DNA from: Solilutibacter silvestris
Lineage (GTDB): Bacteria > Pseudomonadota > Gammaproteobacteria > Xanthomonadales > Xanthomonadaceae
DNA length: 64,000 bases
Reading direction: 5' to 3'
NCBI RefSeq assembly: GCF_002895945.1
Contig: NZ_NPZB01000001.1
Span: 945,501 to 1,009,500, forward strand
The notes beneath the pieces were generated by a model. That model was not told the origin of the DNA. It saw nothing but the letters and a program-made list of their open reading frames with translations, and searched no databases. Within the stretch, counting starts at the first letter, position 1; each line of letters opens with the position of its first letter. A program made the position numbers and the translations under genes. Below, piece by piece: positions 3,186 through 29,008 of the stretch.

Positions 3186-3198
3186 GGAGATCGCTGAC

Positions 3199-4083
3199 AT
3201 GCAACGCAAGGGCATCATCCTCGCCGGTGGTTCTGGCACGCGGCTGTATCCGATCACGCAGGCGATCAGCAAGCAGCTGCTGCCGGTGTACGACAAGCCG
3301 ATGATCTACTACCCGCTCAGCGTGTTGATGCTGGCGGGCATCCGCGAAGTGTTGATCATCAACACCCCGCACGAGCAGGCCTTGTTCAAGGCGCTGTTGG
3401 GCGATGGTTCGCAATGGGGCATGCAGCTGGAATACGCAGCGCAGCCGAGCCCGGATGGGTTGGCGCAGGCCTTCACCATCGGTCGCGACTTCCTTGCCGG
3501 TGCGCCGAGTTGCCTGGTGCTGGGCGACAACATCTTCCACGGACCTGGGTTGACGGCGATGCTCAAACGCGCCGATTCGCGTGATAACGGCGCGACGGTG
3601 TTCGGCTACTGGGTGCGGGATCCGGAACGCTATGGCGTCGCCGAGTTCGATGGCGATGGCAAGGTGGTCGGACTGGAGGAAAAGCCGGCGAAACCGCGCT
3701 CCAACTATGCGGTGACAGGACTGTATTTCTACGATGGACGCGCGCCGGACTTCGCGGCGGCGTTGAAGCCATCGCTACGCGGAGAGTACGAGATCACAGA
3801 TCTCAACAAGTGCTATCTCGATGAAGAATCACTGCACCTTGAACGCCTTGGCCGCGGTTATGCCTGGTTGGATACGGGAACACACGGCTCCCTGCTTGAG
3901 GCCGCTAACTACATAGAGACGATCGAGGCGCGCCAAGGCTTGCGCGTGGCCTGCCCGGAAGAGATCGCCTACAACAACCATTGGATCGATCGCGACCAGT
4001 TGTTCGCCTTGGCAAAGCCGCTGGCCAAGAATGGTTACGGCCAATACCTGATGGCGTTGCCGGAACGAGGCTACGTGCCGTGA
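3199..4083 (+). CDS. rmlA: Glucose-1-phosphate thymidylyltransferase
   Basis: RmlA joins dTTP and glucose 1-phosphate to give dTDP-glucose, the entry and feedback-controlled step of dTDP-rhamnose synthesis. The 294-residue protein carries the nucleotidyltransferase signature [13 protein letters not shown] at residues 8-20, then [16 protein letters not shown], a GDNIFHG metal/sugar motif and [20 protein letters not shown]. Length is normal for the family. A GAGGAG-like Shine-Dalgarno sequence lies just upstream. The stop codon overlaps the GTG start of rmlC. Confidence 0.97.
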
Positions 4084-22025: not shown

Positions 22026-22108
22026 TTGCGCGATTTCCCGAACGACAACCGTGGATTGTGCCATGCAGCAGCCAGACAGGCTTCCGCAGGGGCGATACAC
22101 TGCCGCGG

Positions 22109-22873
22109 ATGACTGACAAGACCCCGTCGCCCGCGCGCCGCAGCGTCTACCTGCTGCCCAACCTGTTCACCACCGGAGCACTGTTCTCCGGCTTTTACTC
22201 GATCATTGCCTCGTCGCAGGGGCTGGTGGAGCACGCCTGCATCGCCATCTTCATCGCCGCCATCCTCGATGGGCTGGATGGCCGCGTCGCGCGCCTGACC
22301 AATACCCAGAGCGAATTTGGCGTGCAGTACGACTCGCTGTCCGACCTGATCAGTTTCGGCATGGCGCCGGCGCTGCTGGTCTACCACTGGTCGCTGGAAT
22401 CGCTGCGCGACCAGGGCGCGACCGCCGGCAAGCTCGGCTGGCTGGCGGCCTTCCTCTACGCGGCCTGTGCGGCGCTGCGGCTGGCGCGCTTCAACAGCCA
22501 GGTCGGCAGCGTCGACAAGCGCTGGTTCATCGGGCTCGCCAGCCCGGCGGCGGCGGCGGTGCTGGCGAGCTTCGTGTGGACATTCCACGGACTGGGCTGG
22601 ACCGATGGTGATGAATTGAGCCTGCCGATCCTGGCGCTGACGGTGATCGTCGCGCTGCTGATGGTGAGCCGCGTGCGCTACACCAGCTTCAAGGGCAGTA
22701 GTGACGGGCCGCGCTCGGAGCGTGTGCCGTTCGTGGTACTGGTGCTGGTGGTGATCGCGTTGATCGCGCTGGCACTGGCGCCTGCGCGCACCTTGCTATG
22801 TGTCTTCGGACTGTATGCATTGTCGGGGCCGGTGATGCTGTTGAAGCGGCGCCGGCCGGGAGCGACTGCATGA
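22109..22873 (+). CDS. pssA: CDP-diacylglycerol-serine O-phosphatidyltransferase
   Basis: PssA makes phosphatidylserine, the precursor of phosphatidylethanolamine. The 254-residue membrane protein contains the CDP-alcohol phosphatidyltransferase signature DG-x2-AR-x8-G-x3-D-x3-D, here [15 protein letters not shown] and VQYDSLSD, within several hydrophobic helices. The [11 protein letters not shown] start at 22109 has no Shine-Dalgarno sequence. A TACACT hexamer ends 7 nt before the ATG, so the mRNA may be leaderless. The stop overlaps the next gene (ATGA). Confidence 0.94.
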
Positions 22874-23151
22874 GTTGGGATGCCTTCCAGCGCGAAGCGT
22901 TGGCGGAACTCGGGATCGAGGTCTATGCGCTGGGCGGCACGTCCGCCGCGCCTGAGCTGATCGATGCGCCTGTCGCGAATTCGTCCGCGCAAACCGCCGA
23001 TGTGTTGTTGCGTCACCTGTTGAAGGCGGCGGGCGGCGATGCGCGCGAACAGGACGTGCTGGCGTTGGCGCAGCCGTTGTCGGGATTGCGCGGCAATGCC
23101 GCCGCCAAGCGCGCGTTGTGGCCATTGCTGAGGGGAATGCGACGGCTGTGA
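22870..23151 (+). CDS. Small protein, candidate DNA polymerase III psi subunit
   Basis: The product has 93 residues. It is not obviously assignable from one motif. The N terminus ([21 protein letters not shown]) follows the pattern of HolD psi proteins, whose N-terminal peptide has a short helix then LGI-x2-W/Y-x-L and binds chi. In E. coli holD also lies directly upstream of, and overlaps, rimI, as here (GTGA at 23148). It is shorter than E. coli psi (137 residues). It overlaps pssA by 4 bp, so all three genes are coupled. The psi assignment is inference from the short motif and position. Confidence 0.6.
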   Translation: MSWDAFQREALAELGIEVYALGGTSAAPELIDAPVANSSAQTADVLLRHLLKAAGGDAREQDVLALAQPLSGLRGNAAAKRALWPLLRGMRRL

Positions 23152-23633
23152 GCGCGGTGACGACGCCACCGCCGATGCCGGCAGGCCGTTTGCGCCCGAT
23201 CCGCGAGAGTGATCTCGATGCGGTGATGGCGGTGGAGGAACGCGGGTATCCGCATCCGTGGTCGCGCGCAGTGTTCCGCGATTGCCTGCGCGCCGGGTAT
23301 TCGGCATGGATGCTGGAAGACGGTGTCGGCGAGGTGCTCGGTTACGGCGTGCTGAGCCACGCGCTCGACGAATGCCATTTGCTGAATCTGTGCGTCGATC
23401 CGCGGGTGCAGTCGCGCGGGGTGGGGCGATCGTTGTTGATGTCGCTGCTGCAATTGGCACGTGCGCGCGGCGCGCGACAGATGTTCCTGGAAGTACGGCC
23501 GTCGAACACGCGTGCGGTCGCGCTGTACCACGACATCGGCTTCAACGAGATCGGGCGGCGCCCGCGCTATTACCCCGCCGCAAATGGTCAGCGCGAAGAC
23601 GCGATCGTGATGGCGATGGAGTTGTTGGATTAG
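23148..23633 (+). CDS. rimI: Ribosomal protein S18 alanine N-acetyltransferase
   Basis: This 161-residue GNAT acetyltransferase transfers acetyl from acetyl-CoA to the N-terminal alanine of protein S18 in the family archetype. The acetyl-CoA-binding loop VDPRVQSRGVGRSLL and the C-terminal LYHDIGFNEIGRRPRYYP are clear RimI features. The start is GTG 23148, overlapping the preceding stop. It ends the pssA-psi-rimI unit and is followed by a structured convergent intergenic repeat. Confidence 0.92.
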   Translation: MSAVTTPPPMPAGRLRPIRESDLDAVMAVEERGYPHPWSRAVFRDCLRAGYSAWMLEDGVGEVLGYGVLSHALDECHLLNLCVDPRVQSRGVGRSLLMSLLQLARARGARQMFLEVRPSNTRAVALYHDIGFNEIGRRPRYYPAANGQREDAIVMAMELLD

Positions 23634-23929: not shown

Positions 23930-26719
23930 TCACCCCAACCGCGCGCGCTGTCCCGCCAACGCATCACGCTGCGAGGTCCACTCGACCAGACGCTGGCGCT
24001 CCTGCTCCACCACTTGCGCCGGTGCCTTGCCCTCAAACGCTGCGAGCTTGTTCTGCGACTTCGTCAGCTCCGCTTCGACGCGCTTGAGCTCCTTGTCGAG
24101 GCGCACGCGTTCGGCATCGAGATCGACCAGCCCTTCCAGCGGCACGAACAGATCGAGATCGCCGACGCGTGCAGTCGCCGCAGCTGGCGGTTCACCAGTG
24201 AGTGGCTCGATGTGATCGATGCGGGCGAGGAAACGCAACGCCGCATCGAAGCACGACAAACGGGCAGCATCGCCATCGCTTCCGCCGCGCACCAGCAACG
24301 AAACTTGCTTCGCCGGCGAGATCGCGAGTTCGCTGCGGACGCGCCGCAATGCCGTCACCATCGACTTCAGCCACTCGATATCGTCACTGGCCTGGCCGAA
24401 CGCGGTGGCATCGAAATCGGGTGCCTGCGGATATGGCTGGATCATGATGCTGCCGGACTTGCCGAGCTTCGGTGCGACCGACTGCCACAGCTCCTCGCTG
24501 ACGAACGGCACCAGCGGATGCAGCAGGCACAACAGACGTTCCAGCACGAACAGCAGCGTGTGGCGGGTGGAATCGGCCGCGGCCTTGTCATCGCCATTGA
24601 GCGCCGGCTTCGACAATTCCACGAACCAGTCACAGAACTGGTTCCAGGCGAATTCGTACAGCGTCTGCGCCAGCAGGTCGAAGCGGTAGTTGGCGAAATG
24701 CTCGGCTGCCTCGGCGCTGGTCTTCGCCAGTTGCGCGAGGATCCACTGTTCGGCATCGGTCCGCGGCTGCGGCGCACCTTCGAAACGCACATCGTCGCCG
24801 ACGTTCATCAGCACAAAGCGCGTGGCGTTCCACAACTTGTTGCAGAAATTCCGGTAGCCATCGGCACGCGCCAGATCGAACTTGATGTCACGGCCGGGGC
24901 CGGCCAGCGCGCACATGGTGAAACGCAATGCGTCGGCGCCGTGCGCGGCGATGCCGTCGGGGAATTCCTTGCGCGTGGCCTTCTCGATCTTCGGCGCGTC
25001 CTGCGGCTTCAGCAGTCCGCTGGTGCGCTTGGCGACCAGCGTGTCGGCGCTGATGCCGTCGATGATGTCGATCGGATCAAGCACATTGCCCTTCGACTTC
25101 GACATTTTCTGGCCGTCCTTGTCGCGGACGAGGCCGGTGATGTAGACGTCGCGGAACGGCACTTCACCGGTCAGCGCGTCGGTCATCATGATCATCCGCG
25201 CAACCCAGAAGAAGATGATGTCGAAGCCGGTCACCAGCACATTGGTCGGCAAGTGCTGGTCGAAGCCACGCTCCTGCATCGCCGCAGCATTCGGCCAGCC
25301 CATGGTGCTGATTGGCCAGATTGCCGAGGAGAACCACGTTTCCAGCACGTCGTTGTCCTGGCGCAATTCCGGTGCGGTGCCACCGTGTTTCGCGGCGGCC
25401 TGCACGCGTGCTTCGGCTTCGTCGCGCGCGACATAAATATGGCCGGCATCGTCGAACCATGCCGGGATGCGATGACCCCACCATAGCTGGCGACTGATCG
25501 TCCAATCCTGGATGTTCTCCATCCAGTGGCGATAGGTGTTGATCCAGTTCGGCGGCACGAACTTCACCGAGCCGTTCTCGACCAGTTCGAGTCCGCGCTT
25601 GGCAAGATCGTCCATCTTCACGAACCACTGGTCGGTGAGATAGGGCTCGATCACCTGGCCGCTGCGATCGCCACGCGGCACCTGCAGGCGATGCGGTTTG
25701 GTTTCGACCAGATGACCCTGTGCTTCGAGATCGGCGAGCACGATCTTGCGCGCGGCATTGCGGTCGAGGCTGCGATATTGTTCCGGCGCGTTGTCGTTGA
25801 TGCTGGCGATATCGGTGAAGATGTTGATCAACGGCAGATGGTGGCGCTGGCCGACGGCATAGTCGTTGAAGTCGTGCGCGGGCGTGACCTTGACCACGCC
25901 AGTGCCGAATTCGCGATCGACGTAATCGTCGGCGATTACCGGGATCTCGCGGCCCCCCAGCGGCAGGCGCACGCGCTTGCCGACCAGCGCGCTGTAGCGC
26001 TCATCTTCCGGATGCACCATTACCGCGGTATCGCCGAGCATGGTTTCCGGGCGCGTGGTCGCGACGACGACGTGGTCGGGTTGGCCCGGTTCGGGATCGA
26101 TCACGTCATAGCGGATCGACCACAGGTGGCCGTTCTCTTCCTCGCTTACCACTTCGAGGTCGGACACCGCGGTCTGCAGCACCGGATCCCAGTTCACCAG
26201 GCGCTGGCCGCGATAGATCAGGCCGCGCTCGAACAGGCGCACGAAGGTTTCGATCACCGCGCCCGAGGGACCGTCGTCCATCGTGAAGGTCTTGCGCGAC
26301 CAGTCGCCGGACGCGCCGAGGCGACGCATTTGCCGCTCGATGGTGTCGCCGGATTGTTCCTTCCATTCCCACACTTTCTCGATGAATTTTTCGCGTCCCA
26401 GCGAGTCGCGCGTGTCGCCTGTACCTGCGATGGCGAGATTGCGCGAGACCACCATTTCGGTGGCGATGCCGGCGTGGTCGCTGCCGACCTGCCACAGCGT
26501 GCGGAAGCCGCGCATGCGGTGATAGCGCACCAGCGCGTCCATCAACGAATGCTGGAAGGCGTGGCCCATGTGCAGCGTGCCGGTAACGTTCGGCGGTGGC
26601 AGCAGGATGGTGTAGGGCGCACCGTCGCCGTGCGGCGCGAACATGCCGGAAGCTTCCCACTGCTGGTACAGGCGGGTTTCGATGTCGGCGGGTTGGTAGC
26701 TCTGGGCGAGAGTGGTCAT
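23930..26719 (-). CDS. valS: Valyl-tRNA synthetase
   Basis: This 929-residue class I synthetase charges tRNA-Val. The HIGH motif appears in [15 protein letters not shown] near the N terminus and the KMSKS motif is at residues 538-542. The C-terminal segment with [21 protein letters not shown] is the ValRS coiled-coil arm. It follows pepA, holC and a small membrane-protein gene on the same strand, the usual proteobacterial pepA-holC-valS order. Its 3' end meets a repeat-rich convergent gap. Confidence 0.98.
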
Positions 26720-26752
26720 GCGATTCGGGGACGCGAAAGTGTGTGGATTGGA

Positions 26753-26941
26753 TCAGCTGCGCAGCGCGCGACGGATCTTCTGGTCGGTGTGGTACTGGCT
26801 GACGGCGTAGGCGGCCCAGATCGCGGCCGGCACCCAGCCGATCAGGGTGATCTGCAGGATCAGGCAGACGATGCCCGCGAACGGACGCCCGATGGTGAAG
26901 AAGGCGAACCAGGGCAGCAGCAGGGCGATCAGCAGGCGCAT
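26753..26941 (-). CDS. YqaE/Pmp3-family small membrane protein
   Basis: The product is 62 residues with two hydrophobic helices, MRLLIALLLPWFAFFTIG and CLILQITLIGWVPAAIWAAY, joined by RPFAGIV. This two-helix pattern ending in WVPAAIWA and a charged tail is the UPF0057 (YqaE/Pmp3) family, which is stress-linked in yeast and plants but of unclear role in bacteria. It lies between holC and valS, 33 bp upstream of the valS start, and is probably co-transcribed with them. Confidence 0.85.
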   Translation of the reverse strand: MRLLIALLLPWFAFFTIGRPFAGIVCLILQITLIGWVPAAIWAAYAVSQYHTDQKIRRALRS

Positions 26942-26986
26942 CGGGAGTCTCTTGGTTTGGAGCGGGCGAACGACATGTCCGTCCGC

Positions 26987-27412
26987 TTACATGTCGTGCT
27001 TTTTCACGTCGAAGCCGCGCGACTGGTAGTGCTTCCAGCGTTCGCGCAGCGGTGCGCGCGCGGCCGGATCGGCGGGCACGACTTCCAGCACGCGATCGAA
27101 CGTGCCTTCGACCGCGGCATCACGCAGGTTGATCACCAGCGGACGCAACGCGGCATCGCTGCCGGGCGCGGCGATCAGCACCACCGCTTCATCCTCGTCA
27201 TCGTCGCTGCCGGCGATCTGGTGCGGGATGTAGGCGTCGGGATCGAACGACCACAGCAGGTCGTCGAGCGCTTCGGCCTGCGCGCCATCGCGCGCCAGCA
27301 CCAGGGTGTAGAGATTGGCGTCGAAGGCCTTGCGGGCGAGCTCGCACACCAGCAGCAGCGGTTCCTCGCGGAAGCGCGGCTTGTCGATCAGATAGAAGTC
27401 GGCGCGCGCCAT
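26987..27412 (-). CDS. holC: DNA polymerase III subunit chi
   Basis: Chi links the clamp-loader complex to SSB at the replication fork, through psi. The 141-residue protein has the family features ADFYLIDKPRF at the N terminus and the region LDDLLWSFDPDAYIPHQIAG, in which E. coli chi also reads W-x-F-x5-F-x-PH. The start at 27412 overlaps the pepA stop (ATGA). Here an acidic DDDEDE stretch follows the PHQ motif. Its usual partner psi may be encoded at 22870-23151. Confidence 0.92.
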   Translation of the reverse strand: MARADFYLIDKPRFREEPLLLVCELARKAFDANLYTLVLARDGAQAEALDDLLWSFDPDAYIPHQIAGSDDDEDEAVVLIAAPGSDAALRPLVINLRDAAVEGTFDRVLEVVPADPAARAPLRERWKHYQSRGFDVKKHDM

Positions 27413-28896
27413 CAGGCGGCCGATTGATCCAGCAGCCACTGGCTCAGCAGGCCGACCGGGCGGCCGGTGGCCATGCCCATCTTGCCATCGCCATTGGCGA
27501 CGCCGGCGATGTCCATGTGCACCCAGCGCTGGCCTTCGGTGAAGCGCGACAGGAAGCAGCCGGCGGTGATCGCGCCGCCCCAGCGACCGCCGATGTTGTA
27601 GACGTCGGCGAAGGCGGAATCGAGCTGGGTCTGGTATTCGTCCCACAACGGCAACTGCCAGCCGCGGTCGAACACGGTTTCGCCGGCAGCCAGCAGTTCC
27701 TGCGCCAGGTCGTCGCTGTCCTTGGTCATCACGCCGCTGGCGTACTTGCCAAGCGCGACCATGCAAGCGCCGGTGAGCGTGGCGACGTCGATCAGCGCCT
27801 GCGGTTCGAAGCGCTGCGCATAGGTCAGCGCATCGCACAGGATCAGGCGACCTTCGGCGTCGGTGTTGCCGACTTCAATCGTCTTGCCCGACATGCTGGT
27901 GATGACATCGGACGGACGATAGGCATCACCGTCGATTGCGTTCTCGACTGCCGCGGCGATCACCACCAGATTGATCGGCAATTGCATGCCGACCGCCGAC
28001 ACGAAGGCGCCGAGCACGCTGGCCGCGCCGCACATGTCGTACTTCATTTCCTCAATGCCGCCTTGCGTCTTCAGATTGACGCCGCCGGTATCGAAGGTGA
28101 TGCCCTTGCCGACCAGCACAAACGGCTTGGCATCGCCGCCGTTGGAATACTTCAGCACGGCCAGCTTGGGACGATTGGCCGAACCGCGCGCGACCGCCAG
28201 CAGCGAGCCCATCCCGAGCGCCTGCATCGCGGCATCGTCCAGCACTTCGCAGGTCACGTTGTCGAAACGCTTGGCGAACGATTGCGCCTGTTCGGCGACG
28301 TAGGCGGGATTGCACACGTTCGGCGGCAGGTTGCCGAGTTCGCGGGCGAAGGCGACGCCACCGGCGGTCGCGATGCCCTGGGCCAGTGCGCTGGCATCGC
28401 TGCCCTGGATGGCGAGGTGTTCGAGTCCGCTTTCCTCGCGCTTCTTGTTGTCCTTGCCGAGGGTGGCGACATAGCGGTAGCAGGCATGGTCGGCGGTGAT
28501 CACGGCCTGGCGGATCGCCCAGGCGGCATCGCGGCCCTGCACCGGCACTTCGCCGAGGGTGAGCAGGGCGTGTTTGATCGGGCCGGTGCGCAGGGCGCGG
28601 GCGGCATCGGCCACGGCCTTGAGGAATTGCGGGGTGGCGAACTTGTCGGCATCTCCCAACCCGATCACCAGCACGCGCGGCGCAGTGACGCCGGGGATGT
28701 CGTGGAGCAGGGCGCTGGCGCCGGTCTTGCCGGAGAGGTCGCCGCGCTCGGCCAGTGCCGACAGGCGGCCGCTGCTGGCGCGATCCACGGCCTGGCCGCT
28801 GACGCTGAGGGCCTTGTCGGCGAACAGCCCGACGATCAGGCAATCGGTCTCGGCGTGAAGGGGGTCGGAGTGGTTCAGGGCAAATTCGAGGGCCAT
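27412..28896 (-). CDS. pepA: Leucyl aminopeptidase
   Basis: PepA is a dizinc M17 aminopeptidase; in E. coli it also binds DNA at cer/carAB, which cannot be judged here. The 494-residue protein carries [17 protein letters not shown] and the signature NTDAEGRL, both giving metal ligands. ATG 28896 (MALEFAL) is chosen because an AGGA lies just upstream; ATG 28926 would add 10 residues. It heads the minus-strand pepA-holC-yqaE-valS unit and is divergent from lptF. Confidence 0.96.
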
Positions 28897-29008
28897 CAAC
28901 GAGATTCCTAACAGACTTACGTACAATCCCCCATCCCCCGCGGGGACGGTCCCAGGACTGCATCACGTGAACCCGTTAGTTTAGCGGTAACAGGCCCAAC
29001 TGCCCCGA
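28897..29008. promoter_or_regulatory. Divergent pepA/lptF intergenic region with candidate -10 box
   Basis: This 112-bp spacer must hold promoters for both directions. On plus, TACAAT at 28922-28927 is a good -10 hexamer but has no clear -35 partner and would give a leader of about 75 nt for lptF. An AGGA at the pepA side is its ribosome binding site. A stretch near 28970 looks weakly like a tRNA D-arm but is not a tRNA. Confidence 0.35.

Follow-up and report, generated by a model that had tools for sequence, protein, structure and literature searches.

A much reduced psi (HolD) candidate upstream of rimI in Solilutibacter silvestris and the most likely descent of psi from a uracil-DNA glycosylase

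The analysed window, a stretch of 64,000 nucleotides of the Solilutibacter silvestris genome, contains on its forward strand an open reading frame at 22870–23151, the coordinates given in an earlier note made from the sequence. The ATG start lies at 22870, the TGA stop at 23149–23151, and the product has 93 residues. The frame overlaps both of its neighbours on the same strand by 4 bases. The upstream gene, at 22109–22873 (ORF 22058–22873; the start is uncertain), is presumably a pssA-like CDP-alcohol phosphatidyltransferase gene, and its end at 22873 shares ATGA with the start of the 93-residue frame. The downstream gene, rimI (23148–23633; TIGR01575, 8.8e-39, 132.7 bits, cut-off 86.4), has a possible GTG start at 23148 which shares GTGA with the stop. 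The position directly before and overlapping rimI is the E. coli order, as had been noticed earlier; the overlap is 4 bases here and 32 bases in E. coli, from the rimI start at 3186 to the holD end at 3217 of the extracted locus (L061). The holD-rimI overlap in enterics is treated in excerpts of PMC2478687. Comparison of the window gene with four close relatives resulted in dN values of 0.11–0.20 and dS values of 0.69–1.02, which indicates that 22870–23151 is protein-coding and a real gene under purifying selection.

The chi subunit gene, holC, claimed earlier at 26987, was recovered on the reverse strand at 26987–27412 by an NCBIfam equivalog match of 243.8 bits (cut-off 234). It lies within 23930–28926 (reverse strand) between genes which we take to be pepA-like and valS-like, and the order pepA-like, holC, valS-like is the same in E. 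coli. An ORF of 62 residues at 26753–26941 is situated between holC and the valS-like gene. In the window HolC, W54 and R123 are the counterparts of W57 and R128 of E. coli chi, and Y61 stands in place of F64, on which psi binding depends in E. coli. According to excerpts of PMC8378479 and PMC9826845, W57 lies buried where chi and psi meet in E. coli, and R128 makes contact with SSB.

Four parts were distinguished in the 93-residue protein, all encoded on the forward strand. Residues 1–21 (22870–22932) form an N-terminal motif that matches the peptide with which psi attaches to the collar of the clamp loader; compared with MTSRRDWQLQQLGITQWSL of E. coli, this end was as close to psi as the earlier note had held. 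The score of 26.5 bits with the N-motif HMM is not independent, since the window protein was one of the seeds of that model. Residues 22–38 (22933–22983) make up a linker that is variable in a 22-member family alignment, and the pLDDT of residues 14–37 was below 50. A predicted helix at residues 39–54 (22984–23031) was aligned to the psi segment around DPLVSDVLRAL. The C-terminal motif GLRGNAAAKRALWPLLRGMR at residues 72–91 (23083–23142) was aligned to LRANPTARAALWQQI, which in E. coli psi is part of the final long helix, and its R81 and W84 were invariant in the 22-member alignment. At the beta-strand segments of E. coli psi, the alignment has gaps in the window protein.

A single-sequence structure model of the window protein consisted of helices at residues 3–13, 29–32, 39–54, 60–71, and 77–92 and contained no strand. 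The structure prediction by which psi identity was to be checked returned helices, whereas the strands of psi were absent, and the confidence of the model was low (pLDDT 54); the outcome named earlier as speaking against psi, a predicted structure unlike it, was thus partly obtained. The helices-only model is explained by a loss of the strands, as longer relatives from the family and the order (L140, L162, L170, L025) have segments that appear strand-like by eye. With these longer members in view, the window protein looks like a much reduced psi at one end of a gradual loss.

That the protein is a divergent psi was supported by two comparisons, neither of which uses gene order. Of 24 family representatives, 22 were combined into a profile with the window protein first, which was searched against 177,635 distinct PDB sequences. 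Three psi chains were ranked at the top, 3sxu_B (E 5.7e-5), 8giy_F (6.3e-5), and 1em8_B (0.017), and the first unrelated chain followed only at E 0.32. One continuous alignment of this search spans the N motif, the middle helix, and the C motif. The sensitive profile comparison proposed earlier was conducted with hhalign between 103 nonredundant family proteins and 32 canonical psi proteins and resulted in Prob 96.8 and P 2.3e-10 over 100 columns. The score was 60.1, whereas none of 60 column shuffles exceeded 12.1 and the reversed alignment also scored far lower. After the removal of the N motif, the corresponding values were Prob 92.5, P 5e-7, and a score of 40.7 vs at most 14.3 in shuffles. 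The homology of the window protein to psi is supported by these sequence profiles.

The signals of the single sequence were lower. The canonical psi HMM matched the window protein alone with an E of 8.7e-4 at Z=1000 over residues 7–32. PF03603 was the sole Pfam match at E≤10 among 24,736 models (E 0.14, residues 67–84, in the region of the C motif), and as its score of 12.9 bits is below the cut-off of 22.2, the protein is called a psi variant and not a PF03603 member. The NCBIfam models did not match the window protein, and phmmer with the window protein alone against the PDB found no psi, the only match being an unrelated chain at E 1.8. In a Pfam scan of 22 diverse family members, PF03603 was detected at E≤1 in 4, the best value being 0.0062; one of the 22 matched DUF6280 at 2.7e-4. 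The PF03603 search of the whole genome was empty at E≤10, so that no other psi was detected by it; this excludes another psi weakly because the window gene was missed as well.

Proteins encoded upstream of rimI were gathered from the family, the order, and the class. The stretch upstream of rimI was obtained in 96 of the 99 genomes of the family sample, and orthologues, assigned by position, were found before rimI across the family. Both end motifs reached at least 5 bits in one ORF in 78 of the 96 stretches, one motif in 16, and none in 2; these family counts are partly circular, since the N- and C-motif models were partly seeded from the same family. Of the two genomes with neither motif, G023 has a stretch of just 153 bases before the contig ends, and in G263 the rimI match is weak and the contig short.

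In excerpts of PMC3290774 and PMC3197488, E. coli psi binds with its N-terminus to domain III of the three tau subunits and links them to the SSB-binding chi; the N-terminus is required for binding to the clamp loader, and the residues of the chi interface are conserved. The psi peptide is present alone in two solved entries, 3gli (chain O, E. coli) and 9oyg (chain J). By analogy, the N-terminal peptide of the window protein (about residues 3–20) most likely docks on the collar, domain III of DnaX, and the C-terminal helix (about residues 72–91) most likely holds HolC, which binds SSB. The short flexible middle would connect both ends, making this psi a two-ended strap rather than a folded alpha/beta domain. 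The helix alone may be sufficient to hold chi, as the HolC-binding residues of the helicase YoaA, which needs the same HolC residues as psi, map to its last 18 amino acids in excerpts of PMC8378479. In the own genome, a YoaA-like helicase (L424, C2 near 193535) ends with SLPPIPRSRDIDDIRAFFADT; beside it lies an ORF named TsaB-like by eye, and yoaA and tsaB are neighbours in E. coli too.

The gene is thus very probably a reduced psi whose N peptide would dock on the DnaX collar and whose C helix would hold HolC, both bindings being deduced from the likeness to E. coli psi. It is improbable that the protein is derived from psi and has ceased to bridge chi and the clamp loader, having kept one contact or serving mainly the translational coupling of rimI. 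The length of 93 residues, the psi strand segments without a counterpart in the alignment, and the 4-base overlaps with both neighbours, which suggest coupling, are in agreement with such a change. In contrast, both end motifs were kept in the 78 family stretches counted above, the C motif has an invariant R81 and W84, the gene is under purifying selection at the dN and dS values given, and holC is retained in the window genome. Still less credible, to the point of being nearly dismissed, is an unrelated small helical protein of a conserved operon which resembles psi by chance and position: the motifs shared with psi are short and the single-sequence searches stayed below threshold, but the profile search of the PDB placed three core-bearing psi chains first, and the profile-profile scores were far above those of column shuffles both with and without the N motif.

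The reduced psi shares with E. coli psi (1EM8, 3SXU, the 3GLI peptide, PF03603) the N-terminal peptide with L..LGI, the middle helix, the C-terminal helix motif, the gene position directly before rimI, and a HolC in the genome. It differs from it in length (93 vs 137 residues), in the gaps at the beta strands, in the score below the Pfam cut-off, and in the shorter overlap with rimI. The psi of Pseudomonas aeruginosa (PA4679), identified by copurification, is likewise divergent; homology search did not detect it, and chi is clear in the same genome, according to excerpts of PMC3197488 and PMC8879598. However, PA4679 has 278 residues with a long disordered N-terminal part, whereas the window protein shrank. 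A third relation is that to YoaA, the C-terminal tail of which uses the psi site of HolC (excerpts of PMC8378479 and PMC11981726); the window genome also encodes the YoaA-like helicase named above, whose tail is similar. Unlike psi, YoaA is a helicase without a clamp-loader peptide, and its tail, SLPPIPRSRD, is unlike the psi C motif. The idea that the two are one motif was set aside, as the sequences differ.

The survey of the class was based on 185 genomes, mostly one per family, and the stretch upstream of rimI was read for 149 of them. The holC model exceeded its cut-off in 156 of the 185 genomes and the PF03603 model of psi in 10. In the ORFs adjoining rimI, the thresholds were at least 5 bits for the psi N motif and at least 20 bits for the uracil-DNA glycosylase (UDG) domain. 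The N motif and UDG were found in the same ORF in 94 of the 149 stretches and in different ORFs in one; UDG only was detected in 14, N motif only in 13, and neither in 27. Both UDG active-site motifs were present in 82 of the 94 ORFs with N motif and UDG. Among the 109 UDG-type ORFs, GEAPGxxED and HPAYLL occurred together in 91, and the four-cysteine pattern as well in 87. By the PF03167 match and the active-site motifs, the rimI-linked relatives are classified as family-4-type uracil-DNA glycosylases. The same assignment was rejected for the window protein, which has no GEAPG or HPAYLL motif, no four cysteines, and no PF03167 match at E≤10.

The N-motif model was built from 21 seeds containing no intact UDG protein (the seed L035 keeps UDG traces). 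In the controls, none of 346 other ORFs of the same stretches reached 5 bits, and among 913 other ORFs the best score was 2.9 bits save one at 17.3, which was a psi-like N-terminus in another frame before a UDG (L087, G146). In this locus and in L246 (G123), the N motif and UDG are in different frames, which reflects a genuine split or else an error of the assembly. About nine of the 14 UDG-only cases showed a variant of the motif by eye, and in three of the 14 the stretch was cut short.

In an alignment of 90 proteins passing both models with at least 150 bits for UDG, L9, G13, and W17 of the motif were at least 90% conserved. The alignment of solved family-4 UDGs and UdgX to this profile begins no earlier than position 55, which places the psi motif outside the UDG domain. 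PF03167 was found in all 90 proteins and PF03603 at E≤0.1 in 30, while the next family was found in 3. When a profile of the first 32 residues (56 of the 90 proteins) was searched against the PDB, psi peptides were the best matches, 9oyg_J at 0.022 and 3gli_O at 0.024; unrelated chains began at 0.052, and full psi chains were at 0.28 and 0.32.

Among 20 family-4 UDGs from other classes of the phylum, chosen one per family, none had the psi motif at 5 bits; in four of them the frame was open to the end of the stretch. Many of them (L431, L446, L448, and others in L429–L448) have an N-terminal helix motif of their own, e.g. FYLEAGVDxAL or YLREIGV. Judged from the distant similarity of these motifs by eye, an equivalent peptide for the clamp loader may exist in UDGs outside the class. 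In the window genome, no family-4 UDG was found at E≤1e-20; the sole PF03167 match, L426 (C1 207165–207635), has a tail like family-1 Ung by eye. In a family relative, G292, a family-4 UDG match occurs in a 524-residue frame away from rimI (C87:46366–46899).

Among the 139 genomes with holC and a readable stretch, the N motif, UDG, or both were located directly before rimI in 115. Exact tracking of holC by the psi-type genes was rejected: 4 of the 94 genomes with N motif and UDG had no holC match, and 24 of the 139 holC genomes had neither motif nor UDG before rimI. Some of these 24 (G111, G118, G216, G220) look by eye like diverged psi and were left out of the counts. In one of them, G220, the rimI-upstream protein (L062) has 265 residues with YLDAMQVASWLPR, a Pro-rich middle, and a decayed core; we take it to resemble the Pseudomonas psi.

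Several proteins form bridges between UDG and psi, most of them by matches to both models. L048 has a UDG match of 9.3e-42 and PF03603 over the cut-off at its N-terminus, and L069 has UDG at 2.5e-16 and psi at 0.001, below the cut-off. In L035, PF03603 is over the cut-off at residues 3–104 and UDG is at 0.0016 over residues 60–145, below the cut-off. PF03603 covers nearly the whole length of L031 (3e-11). L036, from a genome without a rimI match, has PF03603 over the cut-off and 38.4 bits with the UDG profile. Stages of a decay series were also observed before rimI in L256 (G203), L270 (G156), L067 (G195), and L069 (G135), in which some active-site motifs or cysteines of UDG are lost and others kept.

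The likeness between psi and UDG was also studied at the level of structure, using an AF2 model of the enteric psi L344 (47 sequences, pLDDT 80) as the query against the PDB. Foldseek returned psi and then weak matches only; the family-4 UDG 4zby (E 0.57) had a probability of 0.54, the highest among the non-psi rows listed. In a second look with VIA-align, psi entries had Z values of 21 to 22, and the 33 entries after psi were all family-4 UDG or UdgX, with Z of 7.1 to 5.1 and 103–114 residues aligned; these 33 rows represent four distinct proteins, 28 of them being one UdgX. The first protein that was neither psi nor UDG had a Z of 4.9. Family-4 UDGs (1UI0, 4ZBX, 1L9G) and UdgX are thus the closest fold to enteric psi after psi itself by VIA-align. 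As Z below 8 can mean a common arrangement, this result is given weight only in combination with the sequence bridges. By eye, the psi C motif is similar to LLRSPxEKRKAWxDL, the C-terminal motif of UDG. The window protein itself differs from family-4 UDGs in the features by which that assignment was rejected above.

Psi descends most likely from a UDG tethered to the clamp loader, and the window protein would be a much reduced form of it. The fuller reading, which we consider probable, is that psi is a domesticated family-4 UDG and that the 'missing' psi in most of the families read is the UDG before rimI, which the psi peptide would tether to the clamp loader. Neither the active site nor the iron-sulphur cluster would then have survived in enteric psi, and in the window protein the domain itself would be gone and just the two contact ends retained. 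A rival reading, in which psi and the rimI-linked UDGs are separate lineages and the psi peptide was secondarily fused to an unrelated UDG, which took the place of psi in some groups, is regarded as unlikely. The direct comparison of the enteric psi core with the UDG core by hhalign was weak (Prob 28, P 6e-4, 81 columns; score 27.5 vs at most 21.3 in 60 shuffles), and with both ends removed the Prob was 44 across only 22 columns. The UDG profile matched two of the 32 canonical psi proteins at E 0.17 and the others at 1 or more. PDB searches with the profile of enteric psi and with that of eight intermediates found no UDG at E≤10, the five matches of the latter all being psi, and, as stated, a shared arrangement may account for Z values of 5 to 7.

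What speaks against separate lineages is the presence of both signals in one protein: L035 bears psi over the cut-off at residues 3–104 and UDG at 60–145, and L069, L067, and L036 likewise match both. Most of the intermediates share the same chromosomal place, and all PDB entries next after psi, the 33 rows of four distinct proteins, are family-4 UDG or UdgX. The descent of psi from a tethered UDG is consequently the preferred reading.

Divergent psi proteins are already known from Pseudomonas (excerpts of PMC3197488 and PMC8879598) and from Acinetobacter. A link between psi and UDG was present in no title or opening of an abstract among the papers found; an earlier remark on the fold is possible, e.g. 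in the chi-psi crystal papers. The uracil passages of PMC13220808, PMC12448304, PMC10850973, and PMC3290774 deal with other matters, and the word 'glycosylase' is absent from them. In excerpts of PMC3290774 and PMC3197488, chi is found in more bacteria than psi, and psi is thought to be absent or diverged beyond detection in the others.

The window protein indicates how little of psi may suffice: a peptide, a linker, and a helix. For the class, the rimI-upstream genes with the motif or UDG, found in 115 of the 139 genomes, would fill most of the gap of chi without psi and give psi an origin. If the proposed descent is true, the clamp loader of many of these bacteria would carry a uracil-DNA glycosylase, and the removal of uracil would be built into the replisome.
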